Assembly: GCA_016926755.1 (NCBI GenBank)
Contig: JAFGNZ010000130.1
Coordinates: forward strand, 1-64,000
Length of the DNA: 64,000 nucleotides
Direction of reading: 5' to 3'
Source of the DNA: Myxococcaceae bacterium
GTDB taxonomy: Bacteria > Myxococcota > Myxococcia > Myxococcales > Myxococcaceae
Shown here: positions 14,159-23,364 of the stretch, one piece after another
How the letters are laid out: each line of letters starts with the position of its first letter
How positions within the stretch are numbered: position 1 is the stretch's first letter
Program-made: the position numbers and the translations under genes
Notes under the pieces: generated by a model
What the model saw: the letters and a program-made list of their open reading frames with translations, nothing else
Databases searched by the model: none
Told to the model about the DNA's origin: nothing

Positions 14159-14325
14159 GCGTAGGCCCAGGTGATCGCCCAGAACAGGGCGACGAGCAGG
14201 GCAAGGGTGCCCAGCACGAAGAGGTAGATGTTGCGCCAGGATCCGAGCAGGGGCGGCGCGTCATCGAGCTCGGGCCTCGACGTGGAGGCCGCGCCCGGTA
14301 CAGGAGGCTTCGATTCGGAGCTCAT
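14155..14325 (-). CDS. 56-aa single-pass membrane protein
   Basis: ATG 14325 overlaps the PIG-L stop (ATGA) and its own stop overlaps the symporter start (GTGA), so I chose this start over the track's 14508. The N-terminal 30 residues are hydrophilic (Ser/Pro/Glu). The C-terminus 'NIYLFVLGTLALLVALFWAI' is one membrane helix. Its fixed position between enzyme and symporter suggests a small accessory subunit of the transporter; this is inference from context. Confidence 0.7.
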   Translation of the reverse strand: MSSESKPPVPGAASTSRPELDDAPPLLGSWRNIYLFVLGTLALLVALFWAITWAYA

Positions 14326-16802
14326 TGGGCGAGCAGGTTCGCGAGCAGCCGGTAGGCACCGGGCACGCCCGCGGGGAGTTGGCGGAAGAACGCGATCCCC
14401 GTGTACACGAAGGCTCCCTTGCCGTGACGGGCGACGAGCAGTCCGCCGTGGAGCGGCTGCTCCCCGGGATCGTTCATGGCGAACACGGGCCGGTAGCGCT
14501 CGTCCCACTTCGAGGCGAAGTACAGGCCCCGCTCCTGGACCCAGCCCTCGAAGTCAGCGGGCCCGAGACGGTTGGGCGCGCTCAGGACTGGCTCTCCCGC
14601 GGAGATCGGCGTCATCGCCGCGGTCTCGTCCGTCACCCGATCGCGGCCGATCTCGAACGGGTACGGGCTGATGAGCCCGGCGAGCGGGCCCACGCGGCTG
14701 TTGGTGTTGTACTGCACGATCAGCCGCCCTCCCCGCTCCACGTACCGCAGGAGCCGCTCGCGGTGGAGCGCCAGGCGCGGGTTGGCATTGAAGGCGCGCA
14801 CTCCCACCAGGATGGCCTCGAGGCCCTCGAGCTTCTCGGTGGCCAGGCGCTCCTCGGGCAGCAACGTCACCTCGTACCCGACGGCGGCCAGGCTCTCGGC
14901 CACGCGATCACCCGGCCCGGGGATGTAGCCGATCCGACGCACCTTCGTGGCGAGGGTGAAGGGCACCAGGGTGGCCTCGGAGGGCTGGCGCACCGCCTGC
15001 GGCGGGATGTGCTCATGGCTCACCGCGCGCACGCGCCACGACTCGGTGCGTCCACCACTCTCGACGAGGACGCGCAGGCGGCCCCGCTCGGTCGCGCCCC
15101 TGGGCGGGGTGAGCTGGAACCTCACCGTGCGCTCGTCACCGCGCGCGCTCAGCTGGAACGGCGCCTCCGCGGGCTCCACGCGCCAGCCCTGTGGCACCTC
15201 GAGCCGGACCTTGCCCGCGGCGTCAGCCCGCCCCGCGGCGAGCACCACCTGCACGGACTGGGGCGCGCCGTTGGGGAACATGAGGACCTCCCGGGCGAGC
15301 GTCGCGGTGACGGCAGGCACGATCTCGAAGGCCCGGTAGAGCTCGCCGCGCACCGGATCGACCCACGCGTAGACCACCGGCCGGACCCCCGTGAAGCGCT
15401 TGCCCCCAAGCTCGTAGGTGAACGTCACGGACAAGGCGGGATCGCCCTCGGGACGACCGATGAGCGCCCGATCCGCCACCTCGAAGAGCCCTCCCGCGAC
15501 GGGCTTGCGCAGCCAGTAGGGCGTCGAGATCGCTGCCTCCGCCGGCAGCGTCACCGTCTTGGAGAGCTTGAAGGGCGCCTTGTCGGCCAGCTCGGCGCCG
15601 ACCGCCACCGACTCGCCCCCCGGCAGCGTCACGCTCACGAGCCGCATCGCGGCGGGCGAGCGGTTCAGCGCCATCAGGTTCAGCGCCACCTGTCCGCCTG
15701 GGACGGCCGTCGCCTCCGCGGCGCGCGCCTCGAGGAACAGGCCCGCGCACGCGGCCAGGAGCTCCTCCGTCTCACGCAGCTTGATCGCCTTCCAGCGGTT
15801 GTCGTCAGGCAGGGCCGAGATCGCCTCGTGGACTCGCAGGAGCGCCGGGATGCCGCGGTGAGGCGCGCGCGGATCAAAGCCCTTCACCGCCTCCTCCACG
15901 GCCCGGGTGACCTTCTCGGTGCCGCTCCACCGCCGCCAGGTGAGCTCCAGCCCCTCGAAGGGCTCCGCCTTCGGGCGCACCCCGGCCAGGGGCGAGAAGT
16001 ACTCCGACAGCGAGCCGCGATCCGCCGGCACCCCGAAGCCCTGGCTCTTGTGCTGGCTGCGGCTCTCCGCCGCGATCTCCCCCCAGGAGCGCCCGAGGAG
16101 TGGATCGTAGCCGCCCACGTCCACCTTCAGGTACGCGGACATGTCCGCGTTGGGCCCCAGGTTCCACGTCGAGACGTTGTACAGCAGCCGGTCCGTCTTC
16201 CACGGCTGGAGCGCTCCGAGCTGCTCGGGGAAGCGCGTCGGGTCAGCCGCCGCCGCGAAGGCCTCCTCGGCCAGCAGCGCCGAGGCCGTGTGGTGGCCAT
16301 GGTTCGGCGGCCGGGTGGTGAAGCGCGTCACGATCACATCCGGCCGGAAGCGGCGAATGGCGAGCACGACATCAGCCAGCACCGGGTCACGCCCCCAGCT
16401 GCGCAGCGTCTCGTCGGCGCTCTTGGAATAGCCAAAGTCCCGCGCCCGCGTGAAGAGCTGCTCCGCACCGTCGATGCGCCGCGCCGCGAGCAGCTCCTGC
16501 GTGCGGATGAGCCCGAGCAGCTCATCCTGCTCGGTCCCAATGAGGTTCTGCCCGCCGTCCCCGCGCGTCATCGAGAGGTACCCCGCCCGGAGGCCCCGCT
16601 CGCCCACCGCCCAGGCGAGCAGCCGCGTGTTCTCGTCATCGGGGTGGGCCGCCACGTAGAGCATGCTCCCCACCACACCGAGGCGCCGGAGCCCCGCCGC
16701 GATCTCTCCGGCATGAGGCTGCCGAGGGGTTTGCGCGAGTGCCGTCGACCAGACTCCCAAGCTCATGGCCAGCGTCGTTCCGAGAATGACCAGGTTGCGC
16801 AT
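14322..16802 (-). CDS. Secreted PIG-L (LmbE-like) deacetylase family protein, large form
   Basis: 826 residues from ATG 16802, which begins the signal peptide 'MRNLVILGTTLAMSLGVWST'; the 959-aa track ORF adds a spurious N-terminus. The catalytic PIG-L domain is at the front: 'AHPDDEN' (residues 52-58, metal ligands His and Asp), 'SMTRGDGGQNLIG', and the second metal-ligand region 'PPNHGHHTAS'. About 500 further residues form beta-sandwich and 'GVRAFNANPRLALHRERLL' ThuA/GATase-like regions. The family removes acetyl groups from GlcNAc-type sugars. Export places it in the periplasm or outside. It is the first gene of the operon with a small membrane protein and an SSS symporter, and divergent from bshC-bshA. 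Confidence 0.85.
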   Translation of the reverse strand: MRNLVILGTTLAMSLGVWSTALAQTPRQPHAGEIAAGLRRLGVVGSMLYVAAHPDDENTRLLAWAVGERGLRAGYLSMTRGDGGQNLIGTEQDELLGLIRTQELLAARRIDGAEQLFTRARDFGYSKSADETLRSWGRDPVLADVVLAIRRFRPDVIVTRFTTRPPNHGHHTASALLAEEAFAAAADPTRFPEQLGALQPWKTDRLLYNVSTWNLGPNADMSAYLKVDVGGYDPLLGRSWGEIAAESRSQHKSQGFGVPADRGSLSEYFSPLAGVRPKAEPFEGLELTWRRWSGTEKVTRAVEEAVKGFDPRAPHRGIPALLRVHEAISALPDDNRWKAIKLRETEELLAACAGLFLEARAAEATAVPGGQVALNLMALNRSPAAMRLVSVTLPGGESVAVGAELADKAPFKLSKTVTLPAEAAISTPYWLRKPVAGGLFEVADRALIGRPEGDPALSVTFTYELGGKRFTGVRPVVYAWVDPVRGELYRAFEIVPAVTATLAREVLMFPNGAPQSVQVVLAAGRADAAGKVRLEVPQGWRVEPAEAPFQLSARGDERTVRFQLTPPRGATERGRLRVLVESGGRTESWRVRAVSHEHIPPQAVRQPSEATLVPFTLATKVRRIGYIPGPGDRVAESLAAVGYEVTLLPEERLATEKLEGLEAILVGVRAFNANPRLALHRERLLRYVERGGRLIVQYNTNSRVGPLAGLISPYPFEIGRDRVTDETAAMTPISAGEPVLSAPNRLGPADFEGWVQERGLYFASKWDERYRPVFAMNDPGEQPLHGGLLVARHGKGAFVYTGIAFFRQLPAGVPGAYRLLANLLAQ

Positions 16803-16923
16803 TCGCGCGGACCCTAACAACAAGCCCGCGCCGATGCCCTGAAGAATCCACGCCGCCGCGAGCCAGGGGACTGCCCGCCTCCCCTGTCGCCTCGGTGTGC
16901 CGGACCTGCTATCACCACGCCCC

Positions 16924-18549
16924 GTGACGTCCTCGTTCTCTGGCTCCTGGCTCCAGGGTGAGCCGCGCGCCCTCTCCTTCCTCCCAGATCGCTTCCGCCA
17001 CCGTGCCGCCCGCGCCGAGGCCGTCGCCGCTGCCGCGTCCCGCACCGTGCCCTCCGCGCTCCATGAGGCGCTCGTGGCCCGGAATGCGCGCCTGCCGCCG
17101 AGCCCCGCCCGCGAGCGCCACCTGGAGCTGCTCGCCAGGCCCGGCACCGTCGCCGTGGTGACGGGCCAGCAGGTGGGGCTCTTCCTGGGGCCGCTCTTCA
17201 CGATCTACAAGGCCGCCTCCGCGATCGTCGCGGCCCGGGCGCTCGCCGAGGAGACCGGCCGCCCTTGCGTCCCCATCTTCTGGCTGCAGACCGAGGACCA
17301 CGATCTCCCCGAGATCGATCACTGCCTCACCCCGCGCGGCGCGGGCGAGCCCCTGCGCGTGGCCCTGGAGCACGCCGACGCGGCCACCTCGCGGATCCCG
17401 GTCGCCCACCGACGCCTGGGCGAGGGCGTCACCCGTGCGCTCTCCGCGCTCCGCACCGAGCTGGGCAGCCAGCCCCACGCGGCCGAGCACCTGGGGCTGC
17501 TCGAGCGCGCCTACCGCCCCGAGGCGACGCTGGTGGACGCCTTCGCGGAGGTCCTCTCCACCGTCTTCGCGGAGGAGGGGCTCGTGTTCCTCGATCCGCG
17601 TGACGCGCGCCTCGCACCGCTGGCCGCGCCTGTCCACCGTCGGGCGCTCACGGAGGCCTCGGCCATCGCCGCCGGGCTCGCCGAGCGGGGGAACGCGCTC
17701 GCCGAGGCCGGCTTCTCCGAGCAGGTGCACGTCCGTCCGGGCGCGCCGCTCAGCTTCTTCTCGCCCGAGGGAGTCGAGGGTGCGCGCTACCGCCTCGATC
17801 CCGCCTCCCCAGGCTCCTGGAGCCTCGTGGGCCACCCCGAGGGCGCCTCCGTGACGACGCCCGAGCTCCTCGCCTGGCTCGAGCGCGAGCCGCTCCGCTT
17901 CACGACTTCGGCCCTGCTACGCCCGATCCTCCAGGACACCTGGCTGCCCACCGCGGCGTACGTGGGCGGGCCGGGGGAGATCGCGTACTTCGCCCAGCTC
18001 GCGCCGCTCTATGCGCACGTGGGCCTCCCGCTGCCGCTCATCGTCCCGCGAGCCCGGTTCCGCGTGCTCGACGACCGCACGCGCGGCCTGCTGGACAAGC
18101 TGAGGCTCGCGCCAGATGACGTGACCACCCCGCGTCACGAGCTGCTCGCCCTCCTGTCCGCCCGTGGCGCCGGAGAGGGCTTCGATCCTCCCGAGGCCGT
18201 CGAGGCCCGCCTCATGGGCGCCCTCGCGCCTGAGCTCTCCCGCCTCGGCGAGCGCATGGCCAGCCTCGATCCGAGCTTCGCCCATGCCATCGAGCGCACC
18301 GAGGAGAGCGTCCGCGGAGCCCTCTCCCGCCTCGTGGCCAAGTACGGCCGGGCCATCGCCCAGCGCGATCAGGTGACCGTCGAGCGCGTGGATCGGCTGC
18401 GGGCCTATCTCACGCCCGAGGGCGCCCCGCAGGAGCGCATCTACGGGCTGCCCTACTACGCGAGCCGCTTCGGGACTCGCGCCTTCACGCGGCTCGTCCT
18501 GGAGACGTGCCCGCCCTTCTCGGGCGAGCTCAGGGATCTGAGGCCGTGA
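16924..18549 (+). CDS. bshC: BshC, putative cysteine ligase of bacillithiol synthesis
   Basis: 541 residues from GTG 16924; the track start at 16897 adds nine residues. Neither start has a good ribosome-binding site, and '[20 protein letters not shown]' looks most family-like. BshC signatures: '[20 protein letters not shown]', '[16 protein letters not shown]' and '[17 protein letters not shown]'. BshC is thought to add cysteine to GlcN-malate in the last step of bacillithiol assembly. It overlaps bshA by GTGA, so the two are co-translated. Divergent from the PIG-L/symporter operon across about 120 nt that presumably carry both promoters. Confidence 0.9.
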
Positions 18550-19715
18550 GTGCGACTGACCGCCTCAACCTGGGCATCACCTGCTTCCCCACCTTCGGTG
18601 GCAGCGGCCTGATCGCGACCGAGATCGGGCTGGCGATGGCGGATCGCGGCCACCGCGTCCACTTCATCGCGCGGGATCTGCCGGTGCGCCTCCACGGCAC
18701 GAGCCGGCAGGTGCTCTTCCACGAGGTGACCGAGAGCGACTACCCGGCGCTCCAGCACGCGGGGACGTACCCGCTGGCGCTGGCCTCCAAGATGATCGAG
18801 GTCGCCAGCTACGAGCGCCTGGACATCCTGCACGTCCACTACGCGGTTCCCCACGCCACGGCCGCGTGGATGGCCCGCGAGGTGCTGGGAGACAAGGCGC
18901 CGCGCATCGTGACGACGCTCCACGGGACGGACACCACGCTCGTGGGCACGGATCCCAGCTACCTGCCCATCACGCGCTTCTCCATCCTGCGCAGCGACGC
19001 GGTGACGGCGCCCTCGGAGTTCCTCCGGCGAGCCACCTGGGAGGGCTTTGGCATCCCGGAGACCTTCCCCATCGAGGTCATCCCCAACTTCGTGGACACG
19101 GAGCGCTACGCGCCCGCCCGTGATCGGGCCTGCCTGCGCGAGCTCTTCCCCGCGCTGGGAGAGGACGAGCCCGTCCTCATCCACGTCTCGAACTTCCGGC
19201 CGGTCAAGCGCGTCGGGGACGTGGTGGCCACCTTCGCGGAGGTCCACCGCCGCCTCCCCTGCCGGCTGATCATGATCGGTGACGGCCCCGAGCGCTCCCC
19301 CGCCGAGCGCAGGCTGCGGGAGCTGGGGCTCGAGGAGCGCGTGGCCTTCCTGGGCAAGCAGGAGCACTTCGTGGAGCTGCTCGCCGCGGCCGACGTCTTC
19401 CTCCTCCCAAGCGAGCAGGAGAGCTTCGGCCTCGCCGCGCTGGAGGCGCTGAGCTGCGGCGTCCCCGTGGTCGCCAGCGACATTGGCGGCATCCCGGAGC
19501 TGATCGATCCCGGGGTGACGGGCTACCTCGCGCCGGTGGGCGACGTGGGGGCCATGGCCGAGCACGTCCTGGCGCTCGTGAGCGAGCCTGCCCGCTGGAG
19601 CGCCTTCTCGCGCCGGGCCCGCGAGCGCGTGCTCGCGCGCTTCAGGCTCTCGCCGGCCATCGACCGCTACGAGGCGCTCTACCGTCGCCTCGTAGCGGGG
19701 CGCGCGGGGCGCTGA
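18546..19715 (+). CDS. bshA: BshA, N-acetyl-alpha-D-glucosaminyl L-malate synthase
   Basis: 389 residues from GTG 18546 (GTGA overlap with bshC). GT4-family glycosyltransferase with the BshA opening '[20 protein letters not shown]' and the C-terminal donor site '[20 protein letters not shown]' (E-x7-E motif). It joins GlcNAc from UDP-GlcNAc to L-malate, the first committed step to bacillithiol. A dedicated BshB deacetylase is not in the window unless the divergent PIG-L protein fills that role, which its signal peptide makes unlikely. It is tail-to-tail with the DUF2911 gene with no gap. Confidence 0.92.
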
Positions 19716-20561
19716 CTACTTCTTGTTCTTCCAGTCCTCGAGCGCCTTGGCGACCGCGTCCTTGAAGAAGAAGTTCTCGTCCTTCAGGCCCAGCTCCCAG
19801 GCCACCTGAGCGACCTTGCGGGCCTCCGGGTAGTTGCCCTGCTTCGCCAGGATCTGCGCCTTGGCCCAGTGGTTGTACCAGTTGGGCTGAATGGCGATCG
19901 CGGTGTCCACGTACTTCAGCGCCGTGGCGTAGTCCTTCGTGTTCTCGGCCACGTAGCTGGCGGCGCTGGAGTGCGCGCGCCCCGCGCTGTCCAGCGCGGC
20001 CTTGATGTTGGCCTGCGCGTGCGCCGCCGTGTCGACCTTGATCGGCACCGAGACGCGCAGCTTCTCCCACTCCAGATCGAGCGAGGTGTCGCTGTCGGTG
20101 GTGTTGGAGAAGAGGAACGTCAGCCGCTCGCGCGCGGGGATCGTCGCGGTCGTCCCGGAGACGCGGACGACATCATCCTTGGCGTCGTACGGCTTGCCGG
20201 CCAGCGAGGCGAGCTCCTTGCTCAGGATGACGGTCCAGCCCTTCTGGCTGGGGAGGGTGATGATCGCGTAGGTGCCGGCCGGAACCGGCTTGCCGCCAAA
20301 CGTCACGTCGCGGCTGAAGGTGATCTTGGAGGACGCGTTGGCGCCCGTGCGCCACGGCTTGTCCCAGGGGACCAGCCCGCCCCAGATCTTGCGCCCCTTG
20401 ACGCCCGGGCTGGAGTACTCGATCGAGATGTCGGTCAGCCCCACCTCCTGGCTCACCTTCGCCGCCGGGCTGAGGGCCGGCAGCTTGAGCTGAGCGGCCG
20501 CGGGCTGCGCGGCCAGCATCACGAGAACAGCAAACACAGAACCGAAGGCAACCCTCGTCAT
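19716..20561 (-). CDS. Secreted DUF2911 protein with TPR-like tail
   Basis: 281 residues from ATG 20561, which has AAAGGA upstream; the track start at 20606 adds 15 residues before the signal peptide 'RVAFGSVFAVLVMLAAQPAAAQ'. DUF2911 core: 'QEVGLTDISIEYSSPGVKGR', 'PWRTGANASSKITFS', 'PAGTYAIITLPS'. The last ~90 residues are helical and TPR-like ('YATALKYVDTAIAIQPNWYN'). Periplasmic; found mainly in Bacteroidetes and myxobacteria; function unknown. Confidence 0.88.
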   Translation of the reverse strand: MTRVAFGSVFAVLVMLAAQPAAAQLKLPALSPAAKVSQEVGLTDISIEYSSPGVKGRKIWGGLVPWDKPWRTGANASSKITFSRDVTFGGKPVPAGTYAIITLPSQKGWTVILSKELASLAGKPYDAKDDVVRVSGTTATIPARERLTFLFSNTTDSDTSLDLEWEKLRVSVPIKVDTAAHAQANIKAALDSAGRAHSSAASYVAENTKDYATALKYVDTAIAIQPNWYNHWAKAQILAKQGNYPEARKVAQVAWELGLKDENFFFKDAVAKALEDWKNKK

Positions 20562-20717
20562 CGTCACTTCGTCCTTTCGCTCTGGGAAGGGTGAAGAGCG
20601 GCGCATCTATAGACCGGGCCCCCCGCCCCACCAAGCCTTTCGGGCCCAGGTCCCTTTGAATAAAGGCGGGGCCACCTGCGTCGGGGGGCCTGCCAACCCA
20701 CTGTCCGCAGGGCCCCC

Positions 20718-21377
20718 ATGATCCTCTCGCTCCTGAGCGTCACCCTCCTCGCCTCCGCTCCGACGATGCCGCCTCCCTCGTGCCAGACCGTGAACAGACA
20801 GACGGCCTGCGGCTACTCCTGCGCTACCAGCCTCAGCGGCGTCCGCTGCGCCAGCACCCCCTATGGGACGTGCAGGATGTTCCATGGCGAGGTGTACTGC
20901 TTCGATCCCCCCTTCTCGAGCATCCACCACCCGCCCGATGAGGGCCTGCGCCCCGAGTGCAAGGCGGTGGGAGGCGACGCGGCCTGTGGCTTCAACTGCC
21001 TGGTGGCGAAGGGCAAGGTCGCCTGCGCGCGGACGCCCTACGGCGTGTGTCGGGAGCACTATGGCCAGCTGAAGTGCTGGGACCCGCCAGAGTCCGTCAT
21101 CCACGAGTACGGCTCGCAGATGCCGCGCCCCACCTGCCTCACGGCCTCCACCTCGATCGAGTGTGGCTATGACTGCAAGGCCGATCGCGCCGAGGTGAAG
21201 TGCGCCGTGACGCCGGGCGGCCGGTGCGAGAAGCGCGACTCCGAGCTCATCTGCTTCGATCCGCCGCTGCTCTCGCACTGCTCGCACTCCCAGCCGCCCG
21301 ACCCCAACGAGGTGCGCAAGCCCAAATCCCAGCGGCAGGAGGAGAAGCCGGCCGAGACGCGCCAGACCGAGCACTGA
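20718..21377 (+). CDS. Secreted protein with three identical-spacing six-cysteine repeats
   Basis: 219 residues; the N-terminus 'MILSLLSVTLLASAPTM' is a short signal peptide. It then has three tandem 59-residue units starting at C22, C81 and C140. Each holds six cysteines spaced 9-4-9-8-9, with consensus ACG(Y/F)xC...VxCAxTPxGxC...C(F/W)DPP. The exact conservation of spacing implies three disulfides per unit and an extracytoplasmic location. The C-terminus is charged and probably disordered. It is not a family I can name. No clear operon partner; 110 nt separate it from the DUF2911 gene on the other strand. Confidence 0.75.
   Translation: MILSLLSVTLLASAPTMPPPSCQTVNRQTACGYSCATSLSGVRCASTPYGTCRMFHGEVYCFDPPFSSIHHPPDEGLRPECKAVGGDAACGFNCLVAKGKVACARTPYGVCREHYGQLKCWDPPESVIHEYGSQMPRPTCLTASTSIECGYDCKADRAEVKCAVTPGGRCEKRDSELICFDPPLLSHCSHSQPPDPNEVRKPKSQRQEEKPAETRQTEH
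20781..21266 (+). repeat. Three tandem 59-residue (177-nt) six-Cys repeat units
   Basis: Units at residues 22-65, 81-124 and 140-183 have cysteines at 22/31/35/44/52/61, 81/90/94/103/111/120 and 140/149/153/162/170/179. The period is exactly 59 residues both times. Confidence 0.85.
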
Positions 21378-21423
21378 GCCTCCCTCGGACCGGCGCGTTG
21401 GGGTAGCGTGCCGGCCCCGAACC

Positions 21424-23364
21424 ATGCCCCCTCTTGGTTTCCCCTCGGACATCCAGAAGGAGCTCGAGGCCTCCACGTCCCTGGTGGAGGCCCTGAGGGC
21501 GCATTGGCCCGAGGCCATCGATCTCCGCACGGACCGGCTCTCCAGCTACTTCGAGCTGCCCTACCTCTTCCTGCCCGCCTTCCCTCACCTGCCGCTGCAT
21601 CAAGTCCGGCCGCTGGCGGCCTTCACGCGGCTGATGAGCGGCGCCCTCCAACAGCACGACACGCTGGCGGCCGGGGAGCGCACCCCGCTTCGGGCCGGCG
21701 AGGACGCCCTGCGCCTGATGGCGATGCAGTTCGAGGCCTGCCAGGCGCTGTACGCCTCGATCCCCGCCGGCGCCCCGTTCTGGGCGCGGCTGCGGACGTA
21801 CCTGTCGGAGTACGCGCACGCGTGCGTCGAGGAGCGGGCCTTCGGCCAGGCAGGGCGCTCCTGGCGCGAGTACACCCAGGAGGTGGCCCGCCGCATCATC
21901 CTCGGCAAGCACGGCGTCGCGCGCGCGGTCGTCGCGGGCCTCGTGGAGCTGGCGCGGGACGAGCGCCTGTTCGCGCCGCTGCTGGAGGCCCTCGACGCCT
22001 TCAACTTCGCGTCGCAGCTGTGCGACAACCTGCTGGACTGGCGTGACGACGCGTTCCAGAGCACCCCCTCCCTGCTGCTGGCGCGCGTCCTCCCGGAGCG
22101 GCCGACGCTCCAGGGCACGGCGCTGGAGCATGAGCTGGACCGGCTCGGGCGCGAGCTCTACCACGGAGGGCACGCCTCCCATGTCGTCGGGCTGGCCCTC
22201 TCGGCGCTGGACGCCGCGGACAAGCTCCACGAGCTGCTGCCCGGCGTCTCCCTGCCCTGGTACCTGCTGACGGACTCGCTGCGCCGCAGGTGCCTGGCCG
22301 TGCGGGAGCACATCCAGCGCATCACCGCGGAGCAGTTGCCGCGCGTCCGTGAGGCGCCTCGGCTCGAGCTGGAGCTGCCGGAGCCCGAGGAGCGCTGGCA
22401 GCGCGTGGCCTGGGGGGCGCTGCGCTTCCTGGTGCGACAGTGGCACCTGGGCTTCGGGGAGATGCGGGCGGCGGGGCACGCGTCGAAGCAAAAGGGCGCC
22501 GCGAGCGCGATCCTCCCGCGAGCCCTGGTGATCGAGGCGCTGTGCGACGCGGACGCCTTGCTGGGGGGCCGCATGAAGGGCCTGCTCGATTACGAGGTGC
22601 GCGTGCTGCTGGGCCGCCGTGGCCTCGAGCCCGCCACGGGAGGAAGCCCTCGCCCCGGACATTCGCCGGACGCAGACACCCTGGCGCATGTCGCACGGGC
22701 CCTGGTGCGCGCCGGTCATGGCGCCGAGGCCGAGCAGTCCTTCGGGGCGCCCTTGGAGGAGCTGCTCGCCACCTCCACGGGGAGTGCGGCGGAGCGGGCC
22801 ACGCTGCTCCACACGCTGTGGCTCCTCACGCCGGAGCGCCATGCGGCCCAGCTCCAGCGCTGCGCCGAGCAGCTCGAGGGCCTGCTGGAGCCCGTGGACT
22901 TCTGGAAGGACCTCTCGCACTTCGGCCCGTACTCCCGTGCTCATTCCAGCCTGCGGCTGCTGGCCTCGGCACGCCCGGAGTCACCCGCGCTGCGGCGCCT
23001 CGTCGAATTCCTCCACGCCTCCCAGCGGGGGGATGGAGGCTGGGGCGCGGGGGCGGGGCCCAGCGATGCGCTCAGCACGGCCCTGGCGCTGCTCACGCTC
23101 TCGGCGGCCCGGGGGACCGGGACACACCTGGTGGACGCGGGGCTCGCCGCGCGCGCGCTCGGCTTCCTCGAGGCGGCCCGAGGCGCCGAGGGGGCCTGGC
23201 CAGCGCAGCCCGTGCCGAAGCCCTACCTCGACACCCCCGCCGTCAGCCGCACGCTCACGAGCGCACTCGTGCTCCAGGCGGCGCTGAGCTGCCAGCGCTG
23301 GGGTGAGGAGCCCCTCGCGCCGCGGCCACCGAAAGAAGGCAGCCGGAAGGAGAGAACGCTGTAG
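21424..23364 (+). CDS. Two-domain isoprenoid-synthase-like / terpene-cyclase-like protein
   Basis: 646 residues. The N-terminal ~300 residues resemble class I isoprenoid synthases: 'LSSYFELPYLFLPAF' and the second Asp motif 'FASQLCDNLLDWRDD'. The place of the first DDxxD reads 'SGALQQHDTLAAG', so this motif is lost. The C-terminal ~350 residues resemble class II squalene/hopene-type repeats: 'GHSPDADTLAHVARAL' in the DxDD position (here D-A-D-T, the putative acid Asp kept), 'RGDGGWG' and 'LDTPAVSRTLTSALVLQ'. Bifunctional alpha-beta-type terpene synthases have this order. With the first metal motif gone, chemistry is uncertain. The SDR downstream might act on a product. Confidence 0.7.
   Translation: MPPLGFPSDIQKELEASTSLVEALRAHWPEAIDLRTDRLSSYFELPYLFLPAFPHLPLHQVRPLAAFTRLMSGALQQHDTLAAGERTPLRAGEDALRLMAMQFEACQALYASIPAGAPFWARLRTYLSEYAHACVEERAFGQAGRSWREYTQEVARRIILGKHGVARAVVAGLVELARDERLFAPLLEALDAFNFASQLCDNLLDWRDDAFQSTPSLLLARVLPERPTLQGTALEHELDRLGRELYHGGHASHVVGLALSALDAADKLHELLPGVSLPWYLLTDSLRRRCLAVREHIQRITAEQLPRVREAPRLELELPEPEERWQRVAWGALRFLVRQWHLGFGEMRAAGHASKQKGAASAILPRALVIEALCDADALLGGRMKGLLDYEVRVLLGRRGLEPATGGSPRPGHSPDADTLAHVARALVRAGHGAEAEQSFGAPLEELLATSTGSAAERATLLHTLWLLTPERHAAQLQRCAEQLEGLLEPVDFWKDLSHFGPYSRAHSSLRLLASARPESPALRRLVEFLHASQRGDGGWGAGAGPSDALSTALALLTLSAARGTGTHLVDAGLAARALGFLEAARGAEGAWPAQPVPKPYLDTPAVSRTLTSALVLQAALSCQRWGEEPLAPRPPKEGSRKERTL

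Follow-up and report, generated by a model that had tools for sequence, protein, structure and literature searches.

A tandem six-cysteine domain with internal threefold similarity in probably exported myxobacterial proteins

We report a family of myxobacterial proteins built from tandem copies of a six-cysteine domain, in which the cysteine spacing is conserved and each copy is itself a chain of three similar modules. The family was recognized in the window, that is, the whole stretch of 64,000 nucleotides analysed here (contig JAFGNZ010000130.1 of a Myxococcaceae bacterium), which encodes a three-unit protein, P0001 (Table 1). The repeat is not described in the literature searched. The explanation that we favour, with roughly even confidence, is that P0001 is an exported protein of three undescribed six-cysteine domains, each made of three disulfide-closed hairpins, with a multivalent binding or scaffold role.

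Three six-cysteine units in exact register

The cysteines of P0001 follow one another in steps of 9-4-9-8-9 (C-x8-C-x3-C-x8-C-x7-C-x8-C) in all three units, and the unit starts lie 59 residues apart, as an earlier reading of the DNA from sequence only had proposed. When P0001 without its leader was shuffled 200,000 times, one six-cysteine pattern of this kind arose in 8 shuffles and two in none. That reading had also counted eighteen cysteines in register; these are present, but the protein holds 19, the one overlooked being Cys188, nine residues past the last cysteine of unit 3 and found in all three-unit orthologs with exact 59-residue spacing.

Table 1. Features of the P0001 gene in the window.
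Feature	Position	Strand	Remarks
Three-unit cysteine-rich protein ORF P0001	20718..21377	+	219 aa; dN/dS <1 against ten orthologs
Hydrophobic leader MILSLLSVTLLASAPT	20718..20765	+	Probable Sec signal, judged by eye; no basic n-region; leaders of orthologs similar
Unit 1, Cys22-Cys61	20781..20900	+	Cysteines 22, 31, 35, 44, 52, 61; modules 22-31/35-44/52-61; then FDPP and linker
Unit 2, Cys81-Cys120	20958..21077	+	Cysteines 81, 90, 94, 103, 111, 120; modules 81-90/94-103/111-120; then WDPP
Unit 3, Cys140-Cys179	21135..21254	+	Cysteines 140, 149, 153, 162, 170, 179; modules 140-149/153-162/170-179; then FDPP
Cys188 codon	21279..21281	+	Conserved odd nineteenth cysteine
Charged Pro-rich tail	21282..21374	+	No cysteine

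The offset of Cys188 after unit 3 is that of a linker cysteine in a four-unit paralog encoded in the same genome (see below), which carries a further C-terminal cysteine that is absent from the three-unit form. The three-unit form thus looks like the four-unit protein minus its last unit and tail, and from this sequence comparison the loss of that unit and tail looks like the event that left Cys188 odd. By between-unit identity, units 1 and 2 appear to be counterparts in the three- and four-unit proteins; the assignment of unit 3 is ambiguous.

Comparison of the window gene with ten orthologs gave dN/dS values of 0.28-0.63. The P0001 frame is therefore under purifying selection and belongs to a real gene, while the residues between the cysteines change fairly fast. 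Among the three units of the three-unit orthologs, mean conservation is highest in unit 2. We also considered that P0001 might be a non-coding, GC-rich ORF with a coincidental cysteine register, an idea to which the long spurious ORFs on both strands of this region lend some colour; its probability is negligible, and it is refuted by the shuffles, by the orthologs and paralog sharing the same lattice, and by the dN/dS values. Two long frames run antisense across the gene (20607-21530 and 21247-22944, both on the minus strand); they are also open in nearly all orthologs, as expected from the codon bias of high-GC DNA.

By eye, the leader of P0001 is hydrophobic and contains small residues, and hydrophobic leaders are found in all family members collected. 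Based on this leader and the disulfide-like cysteine lattice, P0001 is probably secreted or exported.

Each unit is a chain of three similar modules

The distant relatives L074-L077 read C-x-x-A-Y-G-x-x-x-C, CGYxC, V-A-A-Y-G..., CAxTPxGxC, x-A-x-Y-G-..., C, a pattern from which we concluded that each unit consists of three similar C-x8-C modules. When the modules of 54 units (less than 70% identity) were compared in register, the BLOSUM62 sums averaged 4.4, 5.4 and 3.5; shuffled columns averaged about -5, and none of 1,000 column shuffles in each comparison did as well as the real modules. Glycine occupies module position 6 in 63, 54 and 70% of modules 1, 2 and 3 of these units, and V, I, L or M occupies position 8 in 43, 81 and 93%.

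Constant linkers, the first of 3 and the second of 7 residues, connect the modules into three-module chains of 8,3,8,7,8. Longer chains occur as well: four modules in L084, L085 and L102 (8,3,8,7,8,3,8) and five in L087 and L090 (9,3,9,7,9,3,9,7,9), and the linkers alternate between 3 and 7 in every chain length. Variation in length falls inside the modules while the linkers stay constant: in L086, L087 and L090 every module is of the x9 type, and L109-L111 have x10 in the third module of their third unit. P0001 itself shows the traits of this hairpin-repeat family, namely C-x8(9)-C modules, alternating 3- and 7-residue linkers, CGY.C and CA.TP.G.C.

C-x3-[turn x, G]-x3-C is the sequence expected of a hairpin whose two-residue turn sets its cysteines directly opposite each other. 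We modelled the unit with AlphaFold, using only window sequences and locus L007 as input (six rows for the single unit, two for the triple unit). The single-unit model (mean pLDDT 59.6) has strands 3-7/10-14, 18-20/23-25 and 33-37/40-44 around turns at 8-9, 21-22 and 38-39, and places Cys 4/13, 17/26 and 34/43 directly cross-strand; most of the strand pairs are seen again in the triple-unit model (mean pLDDT 42.9). With low confidence, the models suggest disulfides C1-C2, C3-C4 and C5-C6, and their main value is their agreement with the hairpins predicted from the sequence. Structure prediction of one unit, which the sequence-only reading had put forward as a check, thus returned hairpins with opposed cysteines, but at a pLDDT of 59.6 and with no significant match when the model was compared with the PDB by Foldseek. 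The tandem use of a compact, probably triple-disulfide domain, as that reading proposed, is consistent with all the data, with the addition that the unit itself comprises three modules.

The family is concentrated in the Myxococcaceae

The window's genome encodes a second protein of the family, the four-unit paralog, again with a period of 59. Weak matches also occur in this genome (L004-L006, E 0.03-0.15), but a profile search of it recovered no significant units beyond the seven known. Matches to the unit profile were found in 83 of 147 genomes of the class and in 88 of 195 of the phylum; they are concentrated in the window's own family, with seven units in most genomes of several genera. 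A genome scan with the window protein found a sole close relative, in a metagenome-assembled genome labelled Archangium sp. An association with mobile DNA was considered and dropped, since the plasmids, phages and viral contigs searched held no relatives.

Spacing is exactly 59 at every step in 49 proteins, 38 with four units and 11 with three (the tally gives 12 three-unit strings, one being a fragment of a four-unit protein). The 59-residue period of the earlier reading therefore holds within the window's family, for its proteins of three and four units, but more distant members are spaced at 54-71. The value 59 is thus a lineage trait, and the six-cysteine core is the domain and the sole general feature. 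Within the core, the six cysteines, G11, Y/F12, A24, T26, P27, G29, F/W41, D42 and P43 are invariant or nearly so.

Some distant members (L084 and L085) resemble lipoproteins and carry the domain C-terminally. L084, L085 and L102, from other families of the phylum, are probable lipoproteins in which the four-module cysteine chain is C-terminal, and their N-terminal part is DUF2799-like (E 0.0053 in one, below the cut-off). L086 has an apparent tetratricopeptide-like region followed by two cysteine units of the x9 type.

The three-unit gene changes neighbours between genera

The P0001 gene is flanked by a divergent DUF2911 gene (19716-20606, minus strand) and a gene for a 646-residue terpene-cyclase-like protein (21424-23364, plus strand), with genes for BshC and BshA about 1 kb upstream. 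BshC (16897-18549) matches PF10079 at E 5.8e-74 and BshA (18507-19715) exceeds the cut-off of TIGR03999; the bacillithiol-type region (14322-19715) also encodes a 959-residue PIG-L protein on the minus strand, below the BshB1 cut-off. The 646-residue protein has no Pfam match; its C-terminal part is similar to squalene-hopene cyclases (8pak, E 1.6e-10), its N-terminal part contains DNLLDWRDD, by eye like the Asp motif of class I terpene synthases, and from these likenesses the protein may combine class I and class II terpene enzymes in one fused chain.

Among the loci fetched, none of the bacillithiol genes tested, the DUF2911 gene or the terpene-cyclase-like gene adjoins an ortholog, and no neighbour of the three-unit gene is common to all genera. 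We therefore set aside the neighbours as a clue to function. Being kept across genera with differing neighbours, the three-unit gene acts as a free-standing gene. The four-unit paralog has a conserved neighbourhood, with a biotin carboxylase-like gene upstream, which gives no functional clue; the comparison suggests that the paralog would be the vertically maintained copy, with the three-unit gene as the dispersed one.

What the units might do

In the explanation that we favour, P0001 would be exported and would reside in the periplasm or outside the cell. Each of the three successive C-x8-C segments of a domain would fold back on itself through a turn of two residues, usually x-Gly, to give a two-stranded beta-hairpin, with a cross-strand disulfide (C1-C2, C3-C4 or C5-C6) sealing its base. 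The short fixed linkers GYx and AxTPxGx would dock the three hairpins together, with the V, I or L at module position 8 on the same face as the module cysteines, and the linkers starting with DPP would set the domains 59 residues apart, so that the whole would form a stiff, protease-resistant, multivalent chain. Its role would most likely be multivalent binding or scaffolding in the cell envelope or the extracellular matrix. This role is the weakest step, no partner gene being conserved alongside. Against the hairpin pairing, the constant 3- and 7-residue linkers equally fit disulfides C2-C3 and C4-C5; the low pLDDT of both models and the Foldseek result, the leader without a basic n-region and the odd Cys188 without an obvious partner also count against this explanation.

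With the non-coding reading discarded, three other proposals were weighed. P0001 could be a structural protein of the envelope or matrix that has no specific ligand and is cross-linked into dimers through Cys188. The conservation of Cys188 and its paralog-like position speak for this, as do the extra C-terminal cysteine of the four-unit paralog, which the three-unit form lacks, and the exact spacing in 49 proteins. Yet the sequence between the cysteines evolves fairly quickly and differs among units, and unit 2 appears to keep more specific residues than plain scaffolding needs; we regard this role as unlikely. Still less probable, to our minds, is a metal- or redox-active cysteine protein, a metallothionein-like store or thiol reservoir for which the nearness of the bacillithiol genes would be meaningful. 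It would account for 19 cysteines in 219 residues and for BshC and BshA upstream, but CxC and CxxC are absent, the cysteine spacings within units are only 3, 7 and 8, the leader is hydrophobic, the metallothionein match in Pfam reaches just E=0.18 (12.6 bits against a cut-off of 27), and the bacillithiol genes tested do not lie beside orthologs; we hold it to be very unlikely.

Between these two in probability, and distinctly unlikely itself, stands a multi-headed serine-protease inhibitor, in which C4 and C5 would close a nine-residue loop, C-A-x-T-P-x-G-x-C, and present the variable position 25 to a protease in the Bowman-Birk manner; such a protein could protect a predator with many secreted proteases from its own enzymes, or act against rivals. 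In favour, eukaryotes commonly have inhibitor domains in tandem. Among the 38 non-cysteine positions of orthologous units, only two vary more than position 25, although its neighbours A24, T26, P27 and G29 are nearly fixed, and its preference differs among the units of the four-unit paralog (Q, R/K, K/R, A/S). Pacifastin-like inhibitors recognized by structure alone are also reported from myxobacteria (PMC13388995). On the other side, no inhibitor family in Pfam, NCBIfam or the PDB was matched, position 25 is mostly Q in distant members (CAQTP), an unusual P1 residue, an exposed variable loop residue is possible without inhibitor function, and the models pair the cysteines within hairpins instead.

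The disulfide-closed hairpins that we favour admit an extension, which has a small chance of being right: the true repeat would be the single C-x8-C hairpin, strung by alternating 3- and 7-residue linkers into chains of 3, 4 or 5 that are used in tandem, and the Myxococcota would secrete such ladders as multi-headed inhibitors or adhesion chains. If so, the ladder would be a simple, extendable disulfide scaffold. Tandem small disulfide-rich domains are already known, and it is the internal hairpin periodicity that is unusual. Disulfide-rich repeat domains are few in bacteria compared with animals. The present family, which has an exact cysteine lattice and is kept by most genomes of a large family of predatory bacteria, lacks a model in Pfam, NCBIfam and the PDB; it is a missing domain entry and an obvious candidate for a first structure determination. 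The inhibitor idea can be tested directly at the variable CA-x-TP loop.

Relation to known domains

The sequence-only reading knew of no named bacterial domain with this cysteine pattern, and a match to a known disulfide domain would have spoken against it. Searches of Pfam, NCBIfam, PHROGs and the PDB with P0001, sets of 27 and 38 units and seven distant full-length relatives gave no accepted match and upheld this view; the PDB, searched by sequence and by profile, held no relative. The sole repeated weak match is DUF6464 (PF20065), the best Pfam match of P0001 (E=0.074). Eleven of 27 units weakly match the last third of this model (best E 0.028); the matches cover part of the unit only and always fall under the curated cut-off of 25 bits (14.3 for P0001, 15.9 for a distant member). 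The best place in the window's genome reaches E 0.51, with none over the cut-off; DUF6464 exceeds it in one control-set genome, the list naming Synechococcus elongatus and Bacteroides ihuae. The defensin-like family PF24552, LNR/Notch, metallothionein and other cysteine-rich Pfam families share small size and richness in cysteine, but their matches are sub-threshold only.

The likeness to the Bowman-Birk loop lies in a nine-residue stretch from Cys to Cys in which Thr/Ser and Pro surround a single variable residue. In the window unit, however, the Pro stands one position earlier, the domain architecture is different, and no Bowman-Birk match was found in Pfam or the PDB. Pacifastin-like serine protease inhibitors, found by structure alone, are reported from bacteria, some of them myxobacteria with GC-rich genomes of 10.8-13.0 Mb, in a 2026 paper (PMC13388995). 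Pacifastin is likewise a small six-cysteine domain, often in tandem, but has about 35 residues and pairs C1-C4, C2-C6 and C3-C5 (PMC13388995), whereas the window unit spans 40 residues from C1 to C6 with symmetric 8/3/8/7/8 spacing and threefold internal similarity, and its low-confidence models pair C1-C2, C3-C4 and C5-C6. Membership in the pacifastin family was rejected on size and profile, the Pfam profile matching none of 38 diverse units at E<=1. By itself the six-cysteine domain alters no known system: the conserved family, without prior description, is a new domain and not a new kind of system.
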